Counted from the first letter of the stretch, positions 8,840-18,820 are shown. The stretch is DNA of 64,000 bases from Clostridia bacterium (GCA_022801925.1 JAAWTG010000002.1:1-64000), one strand, 5' to 3'. A program made the numbers and translations. The notes: generated by a model not told the origin, from the sequence alone.

Positions 8840-9149
8840 ATTTAGCCACCTTCCAAACTGCAAACATGAATGATTATTTTGCAATTTTTATTATAGAACA
8901 ATTCAGAAAAGAAGTCAACCTGTTTTATCAATATTCTGAAAAACCTTATTTGCATTTGTTAAGAGGGAATATCATAGGATAAAGCATAGGAAAGAGAATC
9001 GAATATAAAATGAGTCTCGTATGCCTACAATTATCAAAACACATTTATAATAAAAAAATGTTGAAATGTGACGAGATTTGTGGTATTCTAAAGGAGAGAA
9101 AACAATGCGGGAAAGTTCTAGTAACAAAAATGATACATGCCTGCGAAAA

Positions 9150-9338
9150 GGGGAGCTGTAACGTGAAAGTTCCTTTCACGTTAGCCTTCGGCGGAATAAA
9201 AGGCGCGTGCGAAATTTTGCTCACCTTCGGCTCGCAAACGCACATGCGCAAAAAAATCTCTTATCATTCCTTGCCCTGCCGATAAGAGAAATTTAATTTT
9301 TATTTGTGCCGATGCAGGGCGGCGGAATGGAGATTTTT
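9150..9338 (+). promoter_or_regulatory. strongly structured 5' leader upstream of the Tim44-like/SPFH cluster
   Basis: Hairpins 9159-9183 (11-bp perfect stem), 9211-9250, 9257-9289 (9-bp stem); 9265-9270 + 9273-9279 complementary to 9314-9320 + 9324-9329 abutting the SD GGAG. Confidence 0.5.
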
Positions 9339-10298
9339 ATGAAACGAAGTAAAGTGATAGTGGCGGCGCTGCTGGCGCTGATACTGCAATTTGGTATGGT
9401 AACGGGTGTTGGTATACAGAACCATATGACAAATGCAGCGGCATATGAATTGATACCGGTGGGGGTTGGTAATCAAAACAGCTACCGTTCCAGCGGCGGA
9501 AGCAGTTCGCGTTCCAGGTCTTCCTATTCCGGTTCCTATCGGAGCGGAAGCAGCAGTGACGGCGAATCGCTGGCATGGTTATTGTTATTCATGTCCACAC
9601 ATCCGATTGGGTCGGGTGCGGTGATTATCGTTTTGATTGTGCTGGCGATTTTGTGGAACAAAAAGAAAAACAGCGGCAATGCGGGCAATATGGGAAATGT
9701 AGGTCAGGCGCCGGTATATCAGCCGAAAATGCCGGCAGATTTGACGCCGCTGGAGGCATTGGATCCGGAATTTTCTGCCGACCAGTTTATTAGCTGGACA
9801 AAAGAAGTGTTTGTCACACTAAATCAGGCGTGGACTGCTAAGGATTGGTCTAAAATCCGTCCGTTTGAGTCAGACGCATTGTTCAAAGAACACAGTCAAT
9901 TGCTGGAGGATTACATCAACGGCGGAAAAACCAATGTATTGGACCGTGTTGCTGTCAAAGACGCTGTGATTACCAATTACTATGAGGACAGTCAGAATGA
10001 ATATCTGGAGGTTACCATGCTGACCAATATGATAGATTATGTTGTGGAGGACGCGACCGGAAAAGTGACGGCGGGCGACAAGACAACGCTTTGGGATATG
10101 GAATACACGCTGAAATTTATGCGCAGCCGCGGCGTGAAAACGGCGGGCAACATGGAAGGACTTGCAACGGTGAACTGCCCGAACTGCGGTGCGCCGACAG
10201 AAGTAACGTCGCAGGGACAGTGTGAATATTGTAAATCTGTTATCACAACAGGCAAATATAACTGGGTGCTGTGCAGCTATACCGGAAGAAATCTGTAA
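9339..10298 (+). CDS. Tim44-like domain / zinc-ribbon membrane protein (founding member of the array)
   Basis: GGAG SD at 9329; signal/TM, Ser/Arg/Gly-rich segment, second TM, Tim44-like domain (FISWTKEVFVTLNQAWTAKDWSKIRPF...MIDYVVEDATGKV...EYTLKFMRS), CPNCGAP...CEYCKS. Confidence 0.8.
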   Translation: MKRSKVIVAALLALILQFGMVTGVGIQNHMTNAAAYELIPVGVGNQNSYRSSGGSSSRSRSSYSGSYRSGSSSDGESLAWLLLFMSTHPIGSGAVIIVLIVLAILWNKKKNSGNAGNMGNVGQAPVYQPKMPADLTPLEALDPEFSADQFISWTKEVFVTLNQAWTAKDWSKIRPFESDALFKEHSQLLEDYINGGKTNVLDRVAVKDAVITNYYEDSQNEYLEVTMLTNMIDYVVEDATGKVTAGDKTTLWDMEYTLKFMRSRGVKTAGNMEGLATVNCPNCGAPTEVTSQGQCEYCKSVITTGKYNWVLCSYTGRNL

Positions 10299-10366
10299 TA
10301 ACAGAAACATGAAGCGAACCTGCGCTTGGATAAACAGGAGAAAATATCCTATTATGGGGGTGGTGC

Positions 10367-11080
10367 ATGATGCATGAATCGGATATTATCCTTTTATTTG
10401 AATTTATGTGCATATTGATAGGCGGCGTTATTACACTTATTTGTATTTATTATGATAAACAAAAAGCGAAAAACAGCCAAATGGTAAAGACATTCCCGCC
10501 GCTAAAGCAGGCGGACATTTCGGCGCTGAAAAGAAAAGAACCGCGGTTTTCGGCATTTCACTTTACCAGATGGACAGGGGAATTGTTTCGACAGCTGGCA
10601 ATAGCATATCGGGTGGAAGAACTGGAACCGATTCGCCCCTGCATGACAGATGAATTTTATGAAAGCTGCCGGAATCGGCTCATAGCATTAGAAAAACAGG
10701 GCGAGAGAGAGGTTTATAAGTGGATTGAGGTTAGAAATGCCGTTATTACCGGCTGCCGCGTGCAAGAACAGCAGGAACAACTGATTGTTACATTGCAATT
10801 TACAACCATTTGTTATAAAATGGATATGAAAACAAACCGTATCATAAGCGGAAACGCCGATACAACCGCTCGGTTTCAATATGAATTGGCGTTTGTGCGC
10901 TACCATGCGCAGCAGAAGAAAGCTGTCCCGCGGGCGGAATACTGTCCGCACTGCGGCGCACCGATAGAAAAGAAGGGACAAGGACAGTGCGACTATTGCA
11001 AATCCAAACTTGCAGTGGCAGTGAGCGGCAACAGAAATCGTAGTTGGAGGCTATGCTGCTGCGCCAAGATAGAGTGGTAG
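10367..11080 (+). CDS. Tim44-like / zinc-ribbon protein, type A, N-terminal TM
   Basis: PPLKQADISALKRKEPRFSAFHFTRWTGELFRQL...IRPCMTDEFYESCRNR; CPHCGAP...CDYCKS. Confidence 0.75.
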   Translation: MMHESDIILLFEFMCILIGGVITLICIYYDKQKAKNSQMVKTFPPLKQADISALKRKEPRFSAFHFTRWTGELFRQLAIAYRVEELEPIRPCMTDEFYESCRNRLIALEKQGEREVYKWIEVRNAVITGCRVQEQQEQLIVTLQFTTICYKMDMKTNRIISGNADTTARFQYELAFVRYHAQQKKAVPRAEYCPHCGAPIEKKGQGQCDYCKSKLAVAVSGNRNRSWRLCCCAKIEW

Positions 11081-11149
11081 CAGAGGCACTGCGCCGGAGG
11101 GGATTGACAAAGTGTGGGGCAGCGGAAGAATGAAAAATGATGGTGGTAC

Positions 11150-11881
11150 ATGATGGGATATTTGGAAAATTTTTTAATGCGGATCATGTGGAATGAATTT
11201 GAAAAGCTGGACGGATACAGCGGCGGAGACGAACCGCTTTGGATTCAGTGGACGAGACCGTCATATCCTAAAGTAGAAGAAACCGATTTAGCGCGTCTGA
11301 TAGTGAAAGATTCAAATTTTTCGCCGGAGCGGTTTGTTGACGATGTGGAACAATTGTTTTTGCGTGTGACGCAGGCGGAGGAGAACAATGATTTAAACAG
11401 CATTCAGCCCTATATCACAACAAGTTTGTATGGGCGTCTTCAAAAACGGCTGCGGGACTATAAAAAGTCTCATGAAAAGCCTGTTTACAAACGCATGACA
11501 ATCAGCAATGCCGTCATCACGGATTATGAGGAAAAACAGTATAGCGATTATCTGGAAGTGACGCTGCAAATATTGATGGTGCATTATGTTATAAATTGTG
11601 ATACAGGAAAATTGAGATGGAAACATTCAAAACGGTTGGAGCGATTTCAATATCAAATGGAATTTGTTTGCCGTGAAATAGAGCAGATGCCGAAAAAACG
11701 GAGAATACATTGCCCGCACTGCGGCGCGACGATTGTCGTGCAGGGGCAGGTAAAATGCCCGTATTGTAAATCTATTGTGACCATGCAGGGATCCCAAAGC
11801 GGACAGGGGAAACAGAGATGGAAGTGGCTGCTGAACGATATCAGCGGCGGACGCTGCGAATCGGATAGTATTTGGGGATAA
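11150..11881 (+). CDS. Tim44-like / zinc-ribbon protein, type B, no obvious TM
   Basis: DLARLIVKDSNFSPERFVDDVEQLFLRV...NAVITDYEEKQYSDYLEVTLQ; CPHCGAT...CPYCKS. Confidence 0.75.
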   Translation: MMGYLENFLMRIMWNEFEKLDGYSGGDEPLWIQWTRPSYPKVEETDLARLIVKDSNFSPERFVDDVEQLFLRVTQAEENNDLNSIQPYITTSLYGRLQKRLRDYKKSHEKPVYKRMTISNAVITDYEEKQYSDYLEVTLQILMVHYVINCDTGKLRWKHSKRLERFQYQMEFVCREIEQMPKKRRIHCPHCGATIVVQGQVKCPYCKSIVTMQGSQSGQGKQRWKWLLNDISGGRCESDSIWG

Positions 11882-11910
11882 AAGGAAAATGCGGATAGGG
11901 GGCGTGGAAG

Positions 11911-12639
11911 TTGCTAGGCGTTTTGTTTTGCATATTTTGCATACTTTGCGTGATACTTGGTTTTTGCATCAATAAACTCATGTCCGGCAGAAACGGCGAC
12001 CTTGAATATGAAATGCAGGAGGGCGCGCCGGAAGAAATTCCGCAAGTGGGGTTTCCGCCGCTGCACGCGGTGAATTTATCGGAACTGCGCAAGAAAGAGC
12101 CGGAATTTTCTTCAGGGCGTTTTATCAAATGGGGCAGAGAACTGTTTTGGCAGTTTGCCAACGCGTCAGAGGAGTGGGAGATAGAACCAATTCGACCGTA
12201 TCTCACGGAAGGATTTTACCGAAGCTGTCAAAACAGATGCCAAGATTTGCAAAAACGCGGCGTGAAAATTGTTTATGAACAACGCATAGAACAAAATATT
12301 GCCATTACCGGCTACCGCGTGCAAAATCAGCAGGAATATCTTGCCATGGCATTGCAGGTCTACATCACTTTTGCTATGATAGATGTGAGAACAGGCAGAA
12401 GAGTTGACGGAAAACGCAGTACGTCGCGGCACATGAAATATGAACTGGAATTTATGCGGCAGACCGCCGGAGATATGCCGGATATGGTGCGCGGGGGATG
12501 CTGTCCGCATTGCGGCGCACCGGTAGAAAACGACAGGCAGGAACGGTGTAGTTATTGCAGAGAAAAATTGATATTTGAACCTAAGACGGAAAACTGTAAT
12601 TGGCTGCTAGGCAAATGTACAGAGAAGCGGTATGAGTAG
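11911..12639 (+). CDS. Tim44-like / zinc-ribbon protein, type A', N-terminal TM
   Basis: PPLHAVNLSELRKKEPEFSSGRFIKWGRELFWQFANA...IRPYLTEGFYRSCQNR closely resembles the 10367 product; TTG start. Confidence 0.75.
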   Translation: MLGVLFCIFCILCVILGFCINKLMSGRNGDLEYEMQEGAPEEIPQVGFPPLHAVNLSELRKKEPEFSSGRFIKWGRELFWQFANASEEWEIEPIRPYLTEGFYRSCQNRCQDLQKRGVKIVYEQRIEQNIAITGYRVQNQQEYLAMALQVYITFAMIDVRTGRRVDGKRSTSRHMKYELEFMRQTAGDMPDMVRGGCCPHCGAPVENDRQERCSYCREKLIFEPKTENCNWLLGKCTEKRYE

Positions 12640-12692
12640 AGTGATTATTTCGCAGATGAAAGATAATGCGATAATAAAAGGGGGGCAGCAAG

Positions 12693-13445
12693 GTGTCCGA
12701 GGGTCTTGCAGCAATTGTAGGCGTGATAGTGATTATTGGCTATCTTTTACTGGGTTATTATACAGATGAAACGGAGGGCGCCGAAAGACGTGAACCGTGG
12801 ACAGTGTTCAGGAGACCGCGAAAGAGAAAAAACACTATCTATGACCATCAGCAAGTGCAAAGGGCAGATTTGACGCGGTTGATGGTAAAAGAACCGAAGT
12901 TTTCTACTGATAGGTTTGCGTCCGACGCAAGAGAACTGTTTTTTAGCGTTATCGGCGCGCTGAAACGTAAGGATATCAAGGAACTTCGACCGCATGTCAC
13001 CGGAAAAATGTACGATACGCTCGGGAAAAAGCTGTTGGAATATCAAAATTTGAACAGAAAAGAAGTTTGGGACCGCATTATGGTCAACAATGCTGTCGTT
13101 ACCGATTATCAGGAAAGGAAAAACAGCGATGTGCTGGAGGTCACGGTGCATGTGACCATGAACCACTATGTGGAGGACAAAAAGACGGGCGCAATTTTGG
13201 AAGGAGATTTATTGGGACTGTATAAGTATGAATATCAAATGGAATATATCCGCAGAGAAAACAGAAAATTACCGGAAGGCGTGCGGGAAACCTTTTGCCC
13301 GCATTGCGGCGCGCCGCTGAAAGTGGGGAGTCAAACAAAATGTCCCTATTGTAAATCCATTATTATGACAAATGTGGAAGAAGGTCAGCGCATGGGAAAA
13401 AGCAGTCAGTGGCTGCTGAATCAGATGCATGGCAAAGTGTTATAA
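12693..13445 (+). CDS. Tim44-like / zinc-ribbon protein, type B', N-terminal TM
   Basis: DLTRLMVKEPKFSTDRFASDARELFFSV...NNAVVTDYQERKNSDVLEVTVH resembles the 11150 product; CPHCGAP...CPYCKS; GTG start. Confidence 0.75.
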   Translation: MSEGLAAIVGVIVIIGYLLLGYYTDETEGAERREPWTVFRRPRKRKNTIYDHQQVQRADLTRLMVKEPKFSTDRFASDARELFFSVIGALKRKDIKELRPHVTGKMYDTLGKKLLEYQNLNRKEVWDRIMVNNAVVTDYQERKNSDVLEVTVHVTMNHYVEDKKTGAILEGDLLGLYKYEYQMEYIRRENRKLPEGVRETFCPHCGAPLKVGSQTKCPYCKSIIMTNVEEGQRMGKSSQWLLNQMHGKVL

Positions 13446-13491
13446 ATCCATTTTATATAGAAATTTATAGTTGATGAAAGGAAGGGTAATC

Positions 13492-14784
13492 ATGGGATTG
13501 ATTAAAGCATTCAGTGGGGCGGTTCGTTCAGAACTGGCAGACCAGTGGAAAGAGTATTTTTATTGTGACAGCATGGGAACAAGTACGCTTCTTTGCAAAG
13601 GTGCAAAGAGAACAGGAACAACACAGTTCAAAAGCAGCAACACCAAAGCAAGCGACAACGTCATTTCGGAAGGGTCTATGATTGCGGTCAATGAAGGACA
13701 GGCTATGCTGGTGGTGGAGAACGGTAAAATCGTTGATTTTACCTGCGAACCGGGCGGATACCGTTATGATTTCAAAACGGAACCGTCGCTGTTTTCCGGC
13801 AGTTTCGGCAATGCGCTGACCAGAACCTTTCAGGAGGTTGGGAAACGGTTTGCGCTTGGCGGAGAAACCGGAAAAGACCAGCGGGTATATTATGTGAATC
13901 TCAAGGAAATTGTCGGCAACAAATTTGGGTCGGCGCAGCCTATGCCCTATGACGACCCGTACTATAAAACTGTGTTATACGTCCGCTATTTCGGCGTATA
14001 CAGTTTCAAAGTGACCGACCCGCTGCGTCTCTATACGGCGGTCGCCGGAAATGTGGAAAAAGAATACCGCGCCGGTCAATTGCAGGAACAAAGCGATACA
14101 GAGTTCTATGGCGCGCTGGATACGGCGATGTCCAAATTGGCGGCAGACGGCGTGAAATTTAGTATGCTGCCCTCCAAACAGATGGAGCTTGCCAATTATA
14201 TGAACGAAGCGCTGGACGAATCATGGCGGCAGCTGCGCGGACTGGAAATTATTTCGGTGGGTATCAACAAAATCACGCCCGACGATAAATCCAGAGAACG
14301 GATTGAACAGTTCGACAACGCGACCATGTTGGGCGGTAATCAGGCGGCAATGCAGGGACGCATGACGAGCGCACAGGCAACCGCATTTGAAAACATGGGC
14401 AAACAGTCCGCCGGTACAAGCGGAATGGATATGATGGGCATGGCGTTTGGCGTGCAGGCAATGAATCAGATGGGACAAATGATGCAGCAGCAAACGCCGC
14501 AAGCGGCGCCGCAGTCTGCCACACCGCAGCCTGAAACGGCGCAGAAGGAAGCGGATACATGGAAATGCGCGTGTGGTGCGGAAAATGCAGGAAAGTTCTG
14601 TAGTGAATGCGGACTGGAAAAACCCAAGACGGAAACGGAATGGGTGTGCGCGTGCGGTACAAAGAATGCAGGAAAATTCTGTAGTGAATGCGGTAAACCA
14701 CGTCCGGAGGAAGGCTGGACGTGTGCGTGCGGCGCAGAAAACAAAGGGAAATTCTGCAGCGAATGCGGCAGCCCCAGACCGTAA
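13492..14784 (+). CDS. SPFH-domain protein with three C-terminal zinc ribbons (YdjI-like / virion-core-protein-like)
   Basis: MGLIKAFSGAVRSELADQWKEYFYCDSM...; RBS aaggaaggg; C-terminal WKCACGAENAGKFCSECG / WVCACGTKNAGKFCSECG / WTCACGAENKGKFCSECG. Confidence 0.85.
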   Translation: MGLIKAFSGAVRSELADQWKEYFYCDSMGTSTLLCKGAKRTGTTQFKSSNTKASDNVISEGSMIAVNEGQAMLVVENGKIVDFTCEPGGYRYDFKTEPSLFSGSFGNALTRTFQEVGKRFALGGETGKDQRVYYVNLKEIVGNKFGSAQPMPYDDPYYKTVLYVRYFGVYSFKVTDPLRLYTAVAGNVEKEYRAGQLQEQSDTEFYGALDTAMSKLAADGVKFSMLPSKQMELANYMNEALDESWRQLRGLEIISVGINKITPDDKSRERIEQFDNATMLGGNQAAMQGRMTSAQATAFENMGKQSAGTSGMDMMGMAFGVQAMNQMGQMMQQQTPQAAPQSATPQPETAQKEADTWKCACGAENAGKFCSECGLEKPKTETEWVCACGTKNAGKFCSECGKPRPEEGWTCACGAENKGKFCSECGSPRP

Positions 14785-14804: not shown

Positions 14805-14853
14805 TAAAAAAGGTAGTTTGAACTGCTAAGCGCAGTTCAAACTACCTTTTTTG
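14805..14853. terminator. bidirectional intrinsic terminator
   Basis: aaaaaaggtagtttgaactgc / gcagttcaaactaccttttttt. Confidence 0.9.
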
Positions 14854-15017: not shown

Positions 15018-17816
15018 TTACCAAGTCATAGCCGGTTCCTCTGGCGTGGGTGAAGGTGTGGGAGCGTCGATTGGTGAATCGCTTTGTGCAGGCGGCGTTA
15101 CAGTCGGCTGTTGCTGGGCGATTTCCTCGTTCAGACGCTGCATATCTTTGACAATCGCGTCCACTTCCTTCATGGTTTTTCCATAGTTCTCCCAATCGTT
15201 TTCGCTCATGAACTGTTTTGCTTGATTATATTTTTCCGTCAGCTTCTGCGACAGGGAATATAAATCTTCATTGACCGGCTGCACTTGTTCCGGCGGTGTT
15301 TCTTCATTGGTTTCAGGCATTTGCGGATTCGCATTAAACATGGCTTCAAATGCGGCTTCCAGTGTTGGCTCCATCACAACAGTGTCTCCATATGCCAGAA
15401 TAACGCGTTTGACCTCCGGCAGTCCTGCGCTGTTTTGCGACGTGATATACACAGGCTCTACATAGACAATGGAATCCTTAATGGGAATCACCAGCAAATT
15501 GCCGCGCATGACATTGGAACCGCCCTGTCCCCAGAGCGTCAGTTCTCTGGAAATGTTAGGGTCGTTGTCAATTTTATTTTCAATTTGCAGCGTTCCATAG
15601 ACATGCTTGCCTTTGGGGAATTTATAGGACACCATTTTTCCATAATTCAAGCCGTCCGACATCACGCCAATCCAGCCCACCAAATTGGTATCCTTGTTGT
15701 TCAGCGTATAGGGTACCATTAGCATAAATTCCGCAGATCCATTGATATCCACAAAATTATAATAGGGCGCAATTGCCTGAATTTCGCTTTTGCTGCCATA
15801 TTTTTCGCGGGCAATTTCCCATACGTCCGACTGCGCATAAAACGTTGCAGGGTCGGTGGTATGATATTTTTTATAGATATTTGCCTGCACCTGAAACAGT
15901 TTTTCGGGATATTTGATTTGCAGCGCTACATCATAGGGGAGCGGTTCTGTTTTAAACGTACCCGGATAGACTTTATTATAGGTCTGCATAATGGGGTCGC
16001 TGTGGTCGATGATGTAGATATCCACCGTGCCGTTGTAGGCGTCCACCAGCGCTTTGACGGAATTGCGGATATAGTTGCGCCCGTCCGTCATTTGGGAATA
16101 GGGATAATATTCCGTGGAGGTATAGCCGTCCACTACCCATTTCAGCCGTCCGTCGTTGGTAACGGTGATATGCACGTCATCATCAAAGGAAATAAACGGA
16201 ACCACGTTGCGCACGCGGTCTACCACATTGCGGTTGAGCAGCATACGGCTGTCCGCGTTGATATACTGTGAAGTCACCAAGTTCATATCCATATATTTGA
16301 TGGCAAAAAGCAGACGGTTGAGCGCGGTCATTTCAATACCGGCAGGTCCTTGGTAGCTATATTCGTTTTCCGTTTGTCCTTCTGCAAAATCCAGTTCTTT
16401 TTGCGCCGTATTCACGAGCGTATAGGAATCGCTGTTGATTTCACCGAAATAGATACGCGGTTCCGTGATAGCCGGCAGTTCGTCTGTTGTGAGCTGCACG
16501 GGAATATCTTTCACCAGAAAATCCGGCTGTCCTTCCGCAGTGACGTGGTTGGTGGGACTCATCACAAGCCCATAACCATGCGTGAAACGCATTTTTTCGT
16601 TGACATAGGTCATTTTGCTGGTCGAGGTGGTCGGCTGCATTTCGCGGACGGAAATGAATGCGGACTTGCGTTTGCCGTCCGTTGTCTGATAGGGAATGAC
16701 GTCCACATCTTTGAATTGGTAGTAGCTGCGAATACCCTGCAATTGGTTATACGCGGTAAGCGTCGCCTGATAGTCTGCAATACGAATATTGTCCAGCGTA
16801 TCCTGCGAAATGCTTTCAGGGTCTAATGTATCGGACAGAGGATATTCCAAATCCTGTGTATCTGTGAGGTTATATGCCTGTAGCGTAGCATCAATGTTGT
16901 GCCGGATATAGGGGCGTTCCATTGCCGCTTCGTTGGGGAACACGGCAAAATTTTGCACACAGATGGAGATAGCGCCGATAAGCACCCATGCCGCAGGATA
17001 ACATGCGGCGCAGACCAGTAAACGTTTGAATTGCCCGCGTAGCAAAAACCAAATACAACCGACTACAATCACAATCAGCGCATAGGGCATGATACGGTAG
17101 AAATTCAGCCACACCACCATGTCAGTATAGCCGCCGCCTATCATATCGCCATTAGGCTTAAACAATAGTTCCTCCGCCTGAAAATGGAAGTTATAGGCGG
17201 AAATCAAAAAACAAAGCAGCACATGGACAGTCAGTTCAATGATAATGCCTTTTTGTTTCAGCAGTTCCGAAGGATGTTTGATGCCGTTGCGCACATAGTA
17301 GAGCAGGACAATGGCAAAAACATATACCGCCAGAAAAATGGAAAGTCCCAGCAATGTCTGTGTGAGCTGCATAAACAGAGGACGCTGAAAAACATAGTAT
17401 CCGATGTTTTTATGCAAAATGGGGTCGTTTTCCGCAAACCAAGAGGGGTTAAACGCTGTGAGAACGGTTGTGTAAATATTCTGGTCGATAAACGATGCTC
17501 CGACAATAGCAATCAGCAGACTCATAATGATGAAATGCGACCGTTTGGTTAAAAAACCGCTGGTTTGCTCCCATTTGAGCAAGTTGCGGCGCAGCACCAT
17601 GTTGGTGATGACTGCCAGAATAAAAATTGCGGCAAACGCGCTGACACGCGCCAGCAAGCTAATGGAGAAATTCACCCAGAATACTTTGGTATACTGCGTG
17701 CCTACTTCGTAAATATCCAGATAGTTCAGATAAAACGCAGCAACCCAAATGCCGAGCAGAATCACAGCGATTCCCGCCGCCGCGCCAATGGTAATTTTTT
17801 TTGCTTTGGAAGCCAA
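15018..17816 (-). CDS. UPF0182 family membrane protein
   Basis: 932 aa; N-terminal TM segments and family-typical sequence (YNLTDTQDLEYPL..., WYASQQ-free body, PYSQMTDGRNYIRNSVKALVDAYNGTVDIY). Confidence 0.9.
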   Translation of the reverse strand: MASKAKKITIGAAAGIAVILLGIWVAAFYLNYLDIYEVGTQYTKVFWVNFSISLLARVSAFAAIFILAVITNMVLRRNLLKWEQTSGFLTKRSHFIIMSLLIAIVGASFIDQNIYTTVLTAFNPSWFAENDPILHKNIGYYVFQRPLFMQLTQTLLGLSIFLAVYVFAIVLLYYVRNGIKHPSELLKQKGIIIELTVHVLLCFLISAYNFHFQAEELLFKPNGDMIGGGYTDMVVWLNFYRIMPYALIVIVVGCIWFLLRGQFKRLLVCAACYPAAWVLIGAISICVQNFAVFPNEAAMERPYIRHNIDATLQAYNLTDTQDLEYPLSDTLDPESISQDTLDNIRIADYQATLTAYNQLQGIRSYYQFKDVDVIPYQTTDGKRKSAFISVREMQPTTSTSKMTYVNEKMRFTHGYGLVMSPTNHVTAEGQPDFLVKDIPVQLTTDELPAITEPRIYFGEINSDSYTLVNTAQKELDFAEGQTENEYSYQGPAGIEMTALNRLLFAIKYMDMNLVTSQYINADSRMLLNRNVVDRVRNVVPFISFDDDVHITVTNDGRLKWVVDGYTSTEYYPYSQMTDGRNYIRNSVKALVDAYNGTVDIYIIDHSDPIMQTYNKVYPGTFKTEPLPYDVALQIKYPEKLFQVQANIYKKYHTTDPATFYAQSDVWEIAREKYGSKSEIQAIAPYYNFVDINGSAEFMLMVPYTLNNKDTNLVGWIGVMSDGLNYGKMVSYKFPKGKHVYGTLQIENKIDNDPNISRELTLWGQGGSNVMRGNLLVIPIKDSIVYVEPVYITSQNSAGLPEVKRVILAYGDTVVMEPTLEAAFEAMFNANPQMPETNEETPPEQVQPVNEDLYSLSQKLTEKYNQAKQFMSENDWENYGKTMKEVDAIVKDMQRLNEEIAQQQPTVTPPAQSDSPIDAPTPSPTPEEPAMTW

Positions 17817-17848
17817 ATAAATCCTTCCTTTCTATTCGCCGCGGGACT

Positions 17849-18820
17849 TTATTCCGCGGGTTCACCCTCTTCGGGCTGCTCCTGCGCAGGGGATTCTTCT
17901 GTCAGCGCAGCTTCAAACAATGCGGCAGCAAATTCTTGCGGATTGAATTTCTGCAAATGGTCAATCCCTTCGCCCACGCCGATGAATTTCACAGGCAAAT
18001 GCTGTTCATGGCTGATGGCAATGACAACACCGCCTTTGGCGCTGCCGTCTAATTTGGTTAAAATCAGTCCGGTAATCTCCGCAATCTCACCGAACGTTTT
18101 CGCCTGTGAAAGAGCATTTTGTCCGGTAGTTGCGTCCAGAACAAGCAGCGTTTCTTTTTTTGCGTCCGGTGCCTCGCGGTCTGCCACTTTCAGAATTTTT
18201 TGCAGTTCCGCCATGAGATTCTTTTTGTTGTGCAGACGCCCTGCCGTGTCCACAATCAGAATGTCGGAGCCGCGGGATTTTGCCGCATTTACCGCGTCAA
18301 ACACAACCGCCGCGGGATCGCTGCCTTCGCCGTGGGAAATTACCTCCACGCCTGCGCGTTCTCCCCAGATTTTGAGTTGTTCCGTTGCTGCTGCGCGGAA
18401 GGTATCCGCTGCCGCCAGCAACACATTTTTACCGTCTGCTTTGAATTTTGCCGCCAGTTTTCCAATGCTGGTGGTTTTGCCCACGCCGTTGACGCCGATA
18501 ATCAGATAAATGGTCAGCGGGGAAGCGGATTCGGATTCCTCCGGTGCATGTTCTACCAAAAATTCGGTGATAATAGCCTGCAATTCTGTTTTCAAATCTG
18601 CACCTTCGGTAATTTTTTTCTCTTTTGCTGCGTCACGTAAGCGGTCAATGATGTCCATTGCCGTTTCCGCGCCGACGTCGGCGATAATGAGCGCTTCTTC
18701 CAATTCGTCAAACAGTTCGTCGTCCACTTTTTTGAACTGGTGAAACACCTGTTCAACGCGCTCGGTGAACACTTGTTTTGTTTTGGTGAGTCCTTCCTTG
18801 AGTTTATTAAAAAATCCCAT
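17849..18820 (-). CDS. ftsY: signal recognition particle receptor FtsY
   Basis: GVNGVGKTTSIGKLA, DTFRAAATEQL, VDTAGRLHNKKNLMAEL, TKLDGSAKGG. Confidence 0.97.
   Translation of the reverse strand: MGFFNKLKEGLTKTKQVFTERVEQVFHQFKKVDDELFDELEEALIIADVGAETAMDIIDRLRDAAKEKKITEGADLKTELQAIITEFLVEHAPEESESASPLTIYLIIGVNGVGKTTSIGKLAAKFKADGKNVLLAAADTFRAAATEQLKIWGERAGVEVISHGEGSDPAAVVFDAVNAAKSRGSDILIVDTAGRLHNKKNLMAELQKILKVADREAPDAKKETLLVLDATTGQNALSQAKTFGEIAEITGLILTKLDGSAKGGVVIAISHEQHLPVKFIGVGEGIDHLQKFNPQEFAAALFEAALTEESPAQEQPEEGEPAE

Follow-up and report, generated by a model that had tools for sequence, protein, structure and literature searches.

A five-gene array of Tim44-type zinc-ribbon proteins beside an SPFH protein in a gut Clostridia bacterium: a probable PspA-independent relative of the pspA-ydjGHI system

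Beyond B. subtilis and E. coli, the question of how SPFH proteins and PspA reach the bacterial membrane is still open. It is raised by a cluster of six genes on the + strand (9339-14784) of a 64,000-nucleotide stretch of DNA, hereafter the window, from the 2.95 Mb assembly of a gut Clostridia bacterium (GCA_022801925.1 JAAWTG010000002.1:1-64000). Five consecutive genes (A-E) each encode a Tim44 domain followed by a zinc ribbon, and the last (S) encodes a Band_7_1/SPFH protein with three zinc ribbons. This arrangement had been read from the DNA in the original prediction, which took it as a membrane-stress or microdomain module with several zinc-ribbon adaptors sharing one SPFH scaffold, and the open reading frames and their Pfam matches bear out the arrangement. 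What would five Tim44-type proteins do beside one SPFH protein? We regard the cluster as related to pspA-ydjGHI of B. subtilis but independent of PspA; in it, the Tim44-zinc-ribbon proteins would be anchors or adaptors of S and A its ancestral partner, and we assign this reading a probability of roughly 0.6.

The products of A-E all exceed the gathering cut-off of Pfam Tim44 (PF04280; 45.2-74.8 bits against 29.6). Gene A (9339-10298; E-value 1e-20) is the canonical member, with the Tim44 domain at about residues 138-264, the zinc ribbon at residues 280-298 and a YNWVL tail, and is followed by the paralogues B (10367-11080; 2e-18), C (11150-11881; 2.6e-14), D (11911-12639, TTG start; 1.3e-11) and E (12693-13445, GTG start; 7.4e-15). 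The C-terminal CPxCGA...CxYC ribbon that had been ascribed to all five is invariant in their alignment, and the zinc ligands are all kept. Hydropathy, with a segment threshold of 1.6, gives one hydrophobic segment each in B, D and E and none in C, as predicted for these four; A, which had been credited with a single N-terminal transmembrane (TM) segment, has two (residues 3-27 and 80-109) with a Ser/Gly-rich stretch between them. Gene E of the sister genome L017 is retained with a longer N-terminus and two segments. The conserved tryptophan tail is likewise present, although it is a family-wide signature rather than a local one, W-x-[LM] following the ribbon in 105 of 113 relatives, most commonly as [HFY]DWVL; in B-E the [YFH][DN]WVL form of this tail is changed. 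The Tim44 domain has an NTF2-like fold, the absence of which the original prediction had named in advance as counting against it, and this fold is confirmed by Pfam, AlphaFold2 and Foldseek. In the AlphaFold2 model of A, the predicted local distance difference test (pLDDT) of the Tim44 region is mostly above 90, and Foldseek finds human Tim44 (2cw9, E-value 2.8e-7), yeast Tim44 and mitoribosomal mL45, sequence identity to these best structural matches being about 10-18%.

Gene S (13492-14784; ATG, with an alternative TTG start possible at 13471) matches PF13421 with 55.0 bits against a cut-off of 24 (E-value 1.1e-14). Three C-terminal C-C...C-C ribbons can be read directly in its sequence and no TM segment is detected by hydropathy, which together with the SPFH domain makes it a protein of the YdjI type. 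Foldseek relates it to stomatin, HflK/C, prohibitin and flotillin (E-values down to 6.8e-8), its AlphaFold2 model being weaker than that of A (mean pLDDT 68.6). By their anatomy, A-E are the only candidate anchors of S encoded in the cluster. Elsewhere in the window genome (L102 5170-6556; G000 C83, about 90 kb) there is another SPFH (Band_7_1) gene that encodes several zinc ribbons; its reading frame is broken, and its copy in a sister genome (L103 200-1531) is intact and encodes 443 aa.

The neighbourhood of the two gene types extends to distant genomes; the original prediction had named an unlinked SPFH gene in related genomes as counting against it. Among 80 loci returned by an alignment scan, chosen by similarity to Tim44-zinc-ribbon proteins alone and not for S, and with the zinc-ribbon motif required, a Band_7_1 gene adjoins the Tim44-zinc-ribbon gene at 45, in either gene order and in about six phyla (Bacteroidales, Clostridia, Bacilli, Erysipelotrichaceae, WS6, Gracilibacteria, Acidimicrobiales and 'Deltaproteobacteria'). 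The linkage of Tim44-zinc-ribbon and SPFH-zinc-ribbon proteins is thus ancient. Because the scan had demanded the motif, unselected class and phylum draws by Pfam profile were added. Ten genomes outside the genus exceed the cut-off in the class draw of 291 Clostridia genomes; an SPFH gene is adjacent in six and not in three, and the locus of the tenth is cut by a contig end (6/9 assessable). In the phylum draw, three of eight Tim44 genes above the cut-off adjoin an S-type gene, and the remaining five adjoin PspA (PF04012, E-values 1e-33 to 4e-39). The usual ratio in linked loci is one Tim44-zinc-ribbon protein per SPFH protein. The idea of several adaptors on one scaffold is therefore well supported by gene association for this cluster, while the norm is one adaptor per scaffold, of which the five-fold array is a genus-level expansion. 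Lysine-decarboxylase/LOG, aspartyl-protease and M16 neighbours, seen in Bacteroidales and Acidobacteria, are lineage-restricted and were therefore not counted as partners. An Acidimicrobiales locus (L075 2686-6526) carries two zinc-ribbon-AIM24 genes, an SPFH-zinc-ribbon gene and a Tim44-zinc-ribbon gene in a row, combining AIM24, prohibitin-type and Tim44 domains, each known from mitochondria; AIM24 is found in none of the three genomes of the window genus. Fusions of Tim44, zinc ribbon and TerB occur in Planctomycetes and Lentisphaerae (L065 1100-3043 and L073 9620-11575) and possibly link Tim44 to Ter stress systems.

Unexpectedly, Tim44 also pairs with PspA. A draw of 74 genomes from another Bacillota order yielded 27 Tim44 loci, at 25 of which Tim44 immediately follows PspA; of the two exceptions, one runs into a contig end and the other is of the zinc-ribbon type, with no SPFH or PspA gene within the short stretch examined. 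Loci with a PspA-Tim44 pair comprise L110-L114, L120, L121 and L136-L154, and one genome (G434) has three pairs. The PspA-paired Tim44 proteins that were read resemble the window proteins in the N-terminal hydrophobic segment, the Gly/Ser-rich stretch and the Tim44 domain, but their partner is PspA rather than SPFH and they have no zinc ribbon. At 14 loci of the Acidobacteria/Myxococcota type, a TPM-like gene lies upstream of a long Tim44-zinc-ribbon gene; when seven of these TPM-like members were tested, five scored above the Pfam TPM cut-off, one narrowly missed it and one was weak. PspA, SPFH-zinc-ribbon and TPM proteins each pair with Tim44, each in a different lineage, and are parts that are joined in the pspA-ydjGHI system of B. 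subtilis (PMC11237479). The window genus has neither PspA (PF04012) nor TPM/YdjH (PF04536) in any of its three genomes, with positive controls, so that the lack of a PspA homologue, first noticed for the window, holds for the entire genome and for the genus.

In B. subtilis, YdjI is likely soluble and loses its membrane localisation without YdjG or YdjH (PMC8581546). YdjG combines an NTF2-like domain with zinc ribbons and a TM segment, and TPM is found in YdjH (PMC11237479). The window cluster is similar in that a soluble SPFH protein with a C-terminal zinc ribbon is encoded beside membrane proteins with zinc ribbons and an NTF2-like domain, and YdjG and the Tim44-zinc-ribbon proteins can be likened by their parts, although the order of these differs. 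As the genus lacks PspA and TPM/YdjH, the cluster cannot be described as just an expanded ydj operon; moreover, the NTF2-like partner here is of the Tim44 type, has its ribbon at the C-terminus and is present five-fold. The bacterial Tim44/TimA family shares a membrane-anchored Tim44 domain with A-E, which differ in the C-terminal zinc ribbon and the SPFH linkage and are not members by the NCBIfam models Tim44_TimA_adap NF033779 (21.6-38.8 bits, cut-off 80) and NF033778 (at most 16.9 bits, cut-off 200). The cluster is best called a variant of the SPFH/Psp membrane-maintenance kind that is neither a pspA-ydj system, given the absence of PspA and TPM, nor a curated TimA member. No literature joining Tim44 with SPFH/band 7 and a zinc ribbon, or Tim44 with PspA in a bacterial setting, was found among the non-subscription papers covered, and a 2024 survey of Psp systems makes no mention of Tim44; to that extent the cluster is not previously characterised.

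Mitochondrial Tim44 and mL45 share the Tim44 C-terminal fold with the window proteins, and they suggest a different account, in which Tim44-zinc-ribbon proteins tether a chaperone, a ribosome or a translocon for import or insertion, and the SPFH protein is a membrane-protein quality-control scaffold like HflK/C or prohibitin. Mitochondrial Tim44 and the ribosome-anchoring mL45 are indeed the nearest relatives of solved structure, and the fold of S matches HflK/C and prohibitin. Genes for a UPF0182 membrane protein and FtsY lie downstream of the cluster (15018-18820), as they do downstream of the Tim44-SPFH pair of L043 (12192-15878), but this synteny was seen only in the window genus and L043. 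No gene for FtsH, DnaK, Sec or YidC was seen as a regular neighbour, the recurrent neighbours being PspA, TPM and SPFH-zinc-ribbon proteins. The window proteins have no TIM23/Hsp70 import context, carry an extra zinc ribbon and are not members of the mitochondrial Tim44 family TIGR00984 (13.6 bits for A against a cut-off of 552, no match for B-E). A tether of the mitochondrial kind is thus unlikely.

Why are there five copies? The PF04280 matches in the whole assembly are exactly A-E, and the five-copy array is also present in the other two genomes of the genus (3/3 genomes); because all five matches lie in the cluster and the array recurs, chance is excluded. PF04280 is absent from six genomes of sister genera, and no other genus among the 291 Clostridia genomes has more than two copies. 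A near relative with a single-contig assembly (G146, L125) has exactly one Tim44-zinc-ribbon gene beside one SPFH gene, their products being 48% identical to A and 59% identical to S. Since this relative carries a single A-S-like pair, the simplest reading is that the A-S pair is the ancestral arrangement and that B-E, which lie between the two, were added later. Phylogenetic trees, computed first and then with added rows, group B with D (support 99/99 and 100/99) and C with E (98/94 and 94/90), and place A near single-copy Tim44-zinc-ribbon proteins; with the added rows, B-E cluster together (92/99). Because B/D and C/E are sister pairs, a two-gene unit was presumably duplicated, the simplest history being A, then a B-C unit, and then its duplication into D-E. 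Strict monophyly of A-E is seen in the best tree with a support of just 61/93 and was not accepted. The short single-TM Tim44-zinc-ribbon proteins of other Clostridia and Bacilli, which appeared as orthologues of B-E in the first tree, fall into a separate clade with the added rows (100/100), and they and B-E are taken as independent duplications.

Comparison of the window with L017 gives a ratio of nonsynonymous to synonymous substitution rates (dN/dS) of 0.026 for S, of 0.12 for A and of 0.20-0.26 for B-E: S is held almost fixed, A is under constraint, and purifying selection on B-E is weaker but real. These values bear on whether B-E are for the most part redundant tandem copies whose function is hardly under selection, so that the A-S pair alone would matter and the array would reflect drift. 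B-E have evolved more quickly than A and S, their tail is altered, and in gene D of a sister species (L016 3846-4574 / G001) an in-frame TGA replaces a Trp codon, which marks either a pseudogene or a sequence error. However, purifying selection is clear from the dN/dS of 0.20-0.26, the zinc ligands are all kept, and the duplications must be old, because five copies persist in all three species despite a paralogue identity within the array of about 27-39%; redundancy is accordingly quite improbable. RNA/DNA-binding proteins often contain zinc ribbons, which along with the TerB fusions might hint at nucleic-acid or regulatory binding by a membrane-tethered regulator or a phage/stress defence module instead of a scaffold and its anchors, but with membrane-maintenance proteins as the recurrent partners, and with none of the inspected loci showing an effector, nuclease or regulator next to the pair, this is very improbable.

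In the anchor-adaptor reading that we prefer, S would be a cytosolic protein of the YdjI type, probably assembled into a ring or a patch at the membrane's inner face. The Tim44-zinc-ribbon proteins would be held in the membrane by their TM segment(s), exposing to the cytosol the Tim44 domain and the zinc ribbon with its W-[VI]-L tail, one of which would contact S; by analogy with B. subtilis, they probably recruit S to the membrane. Gene A would encode the ancestral and obligatory partner of S, whereas B-E would be later adaptors, gained through duplication of the two-gene unit between A and S, which probably alter the affinity for the membrane or the range of clients and perhaps surround the one scaffold as the pairs B-C and D-E. 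We infer a role of the whole in membrane stress or in microdomains. Several points weigh against this picture. Every functional link is gene-association evidence, and the two-hybrid partner of YdjI in B. subtilis is YdjH (TPM), not the NTF2-like YdjG. Gene C, having no membrane segment, cannot encode an anchor by itself, and some Tim44-zinc-ribbon loci (L123, L126 and L131) have neither SPFH nor PspA nearby. The stop in D of the sister species implies that not all five genes are needed, unless it is a sequence error.

A candidate sigma-70-type promoter on the + strand upstream of A (9061-9089; TTGAAA-17-TATTCT) was found by a consensus scan that gave 16 promoter-like sites in the region against 10.9 expected, which makes the site weak alone; its hexamers and spacing are also conserved 5' of A in both sister genomes (L016 and L017). 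A strong bidirectional intrinsic terminator (14806-14852; 20-bp stem and T tract) closes the cluster, and no terminator-like site was found on the + strand between A and S. Because of these three features, the six genes are likely an operon. An RNA element inside the cluster was rejected, there being only sub-threshold chance matches to microRNAs over the terminator hairpin. A dispersed repeat of about 174 bp on the + strand (9160-9333) splits the original ribosome-binding site from the ATG of A; it is found in the window genome only, L016 and L017 being without the insertion. The repeat is hairpin-rich and its 3' end is Shine-Dalgarno (SD)-like, GGAATGGAG. Other copies in the same genome (C42:128708-128890, 97%; C24:29223-29399, 92%; C86:24050-24138, 85% identity) likewise finish close to possible gene starts and carry the same SD-like sequence, and the repeat looks like a small mobile element that supplies its own ribosome-binding site.

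In the scheme proposed here, bacterial Tim44-like proteins would be shared adaptors for peripheral membrane-protecting polymers, with SPFH-zinc-ribbon proteins as one branch and PspA as another. A wider and much more tentative possibility is that they form a general, unrecognised adaptor family coupling the membrane to SPFH or PspA (ESCRT-III-like) polymers, that the mitochondrial Tim44 domain derives from or shares such a membrane-maintenance adaptor role, and that this genus might have exchanged PspA and TPM for a diversified five-adaptor SPFH machine. The Tim44-SPFH pair in about six phyla and the Tim44-PspA pair in a Bacillota order point to one candidate adaptor family for both, and they suggest a role in bacterial membrane maintenance for a domain otherwise familiar chiefly from import into mitochondria.

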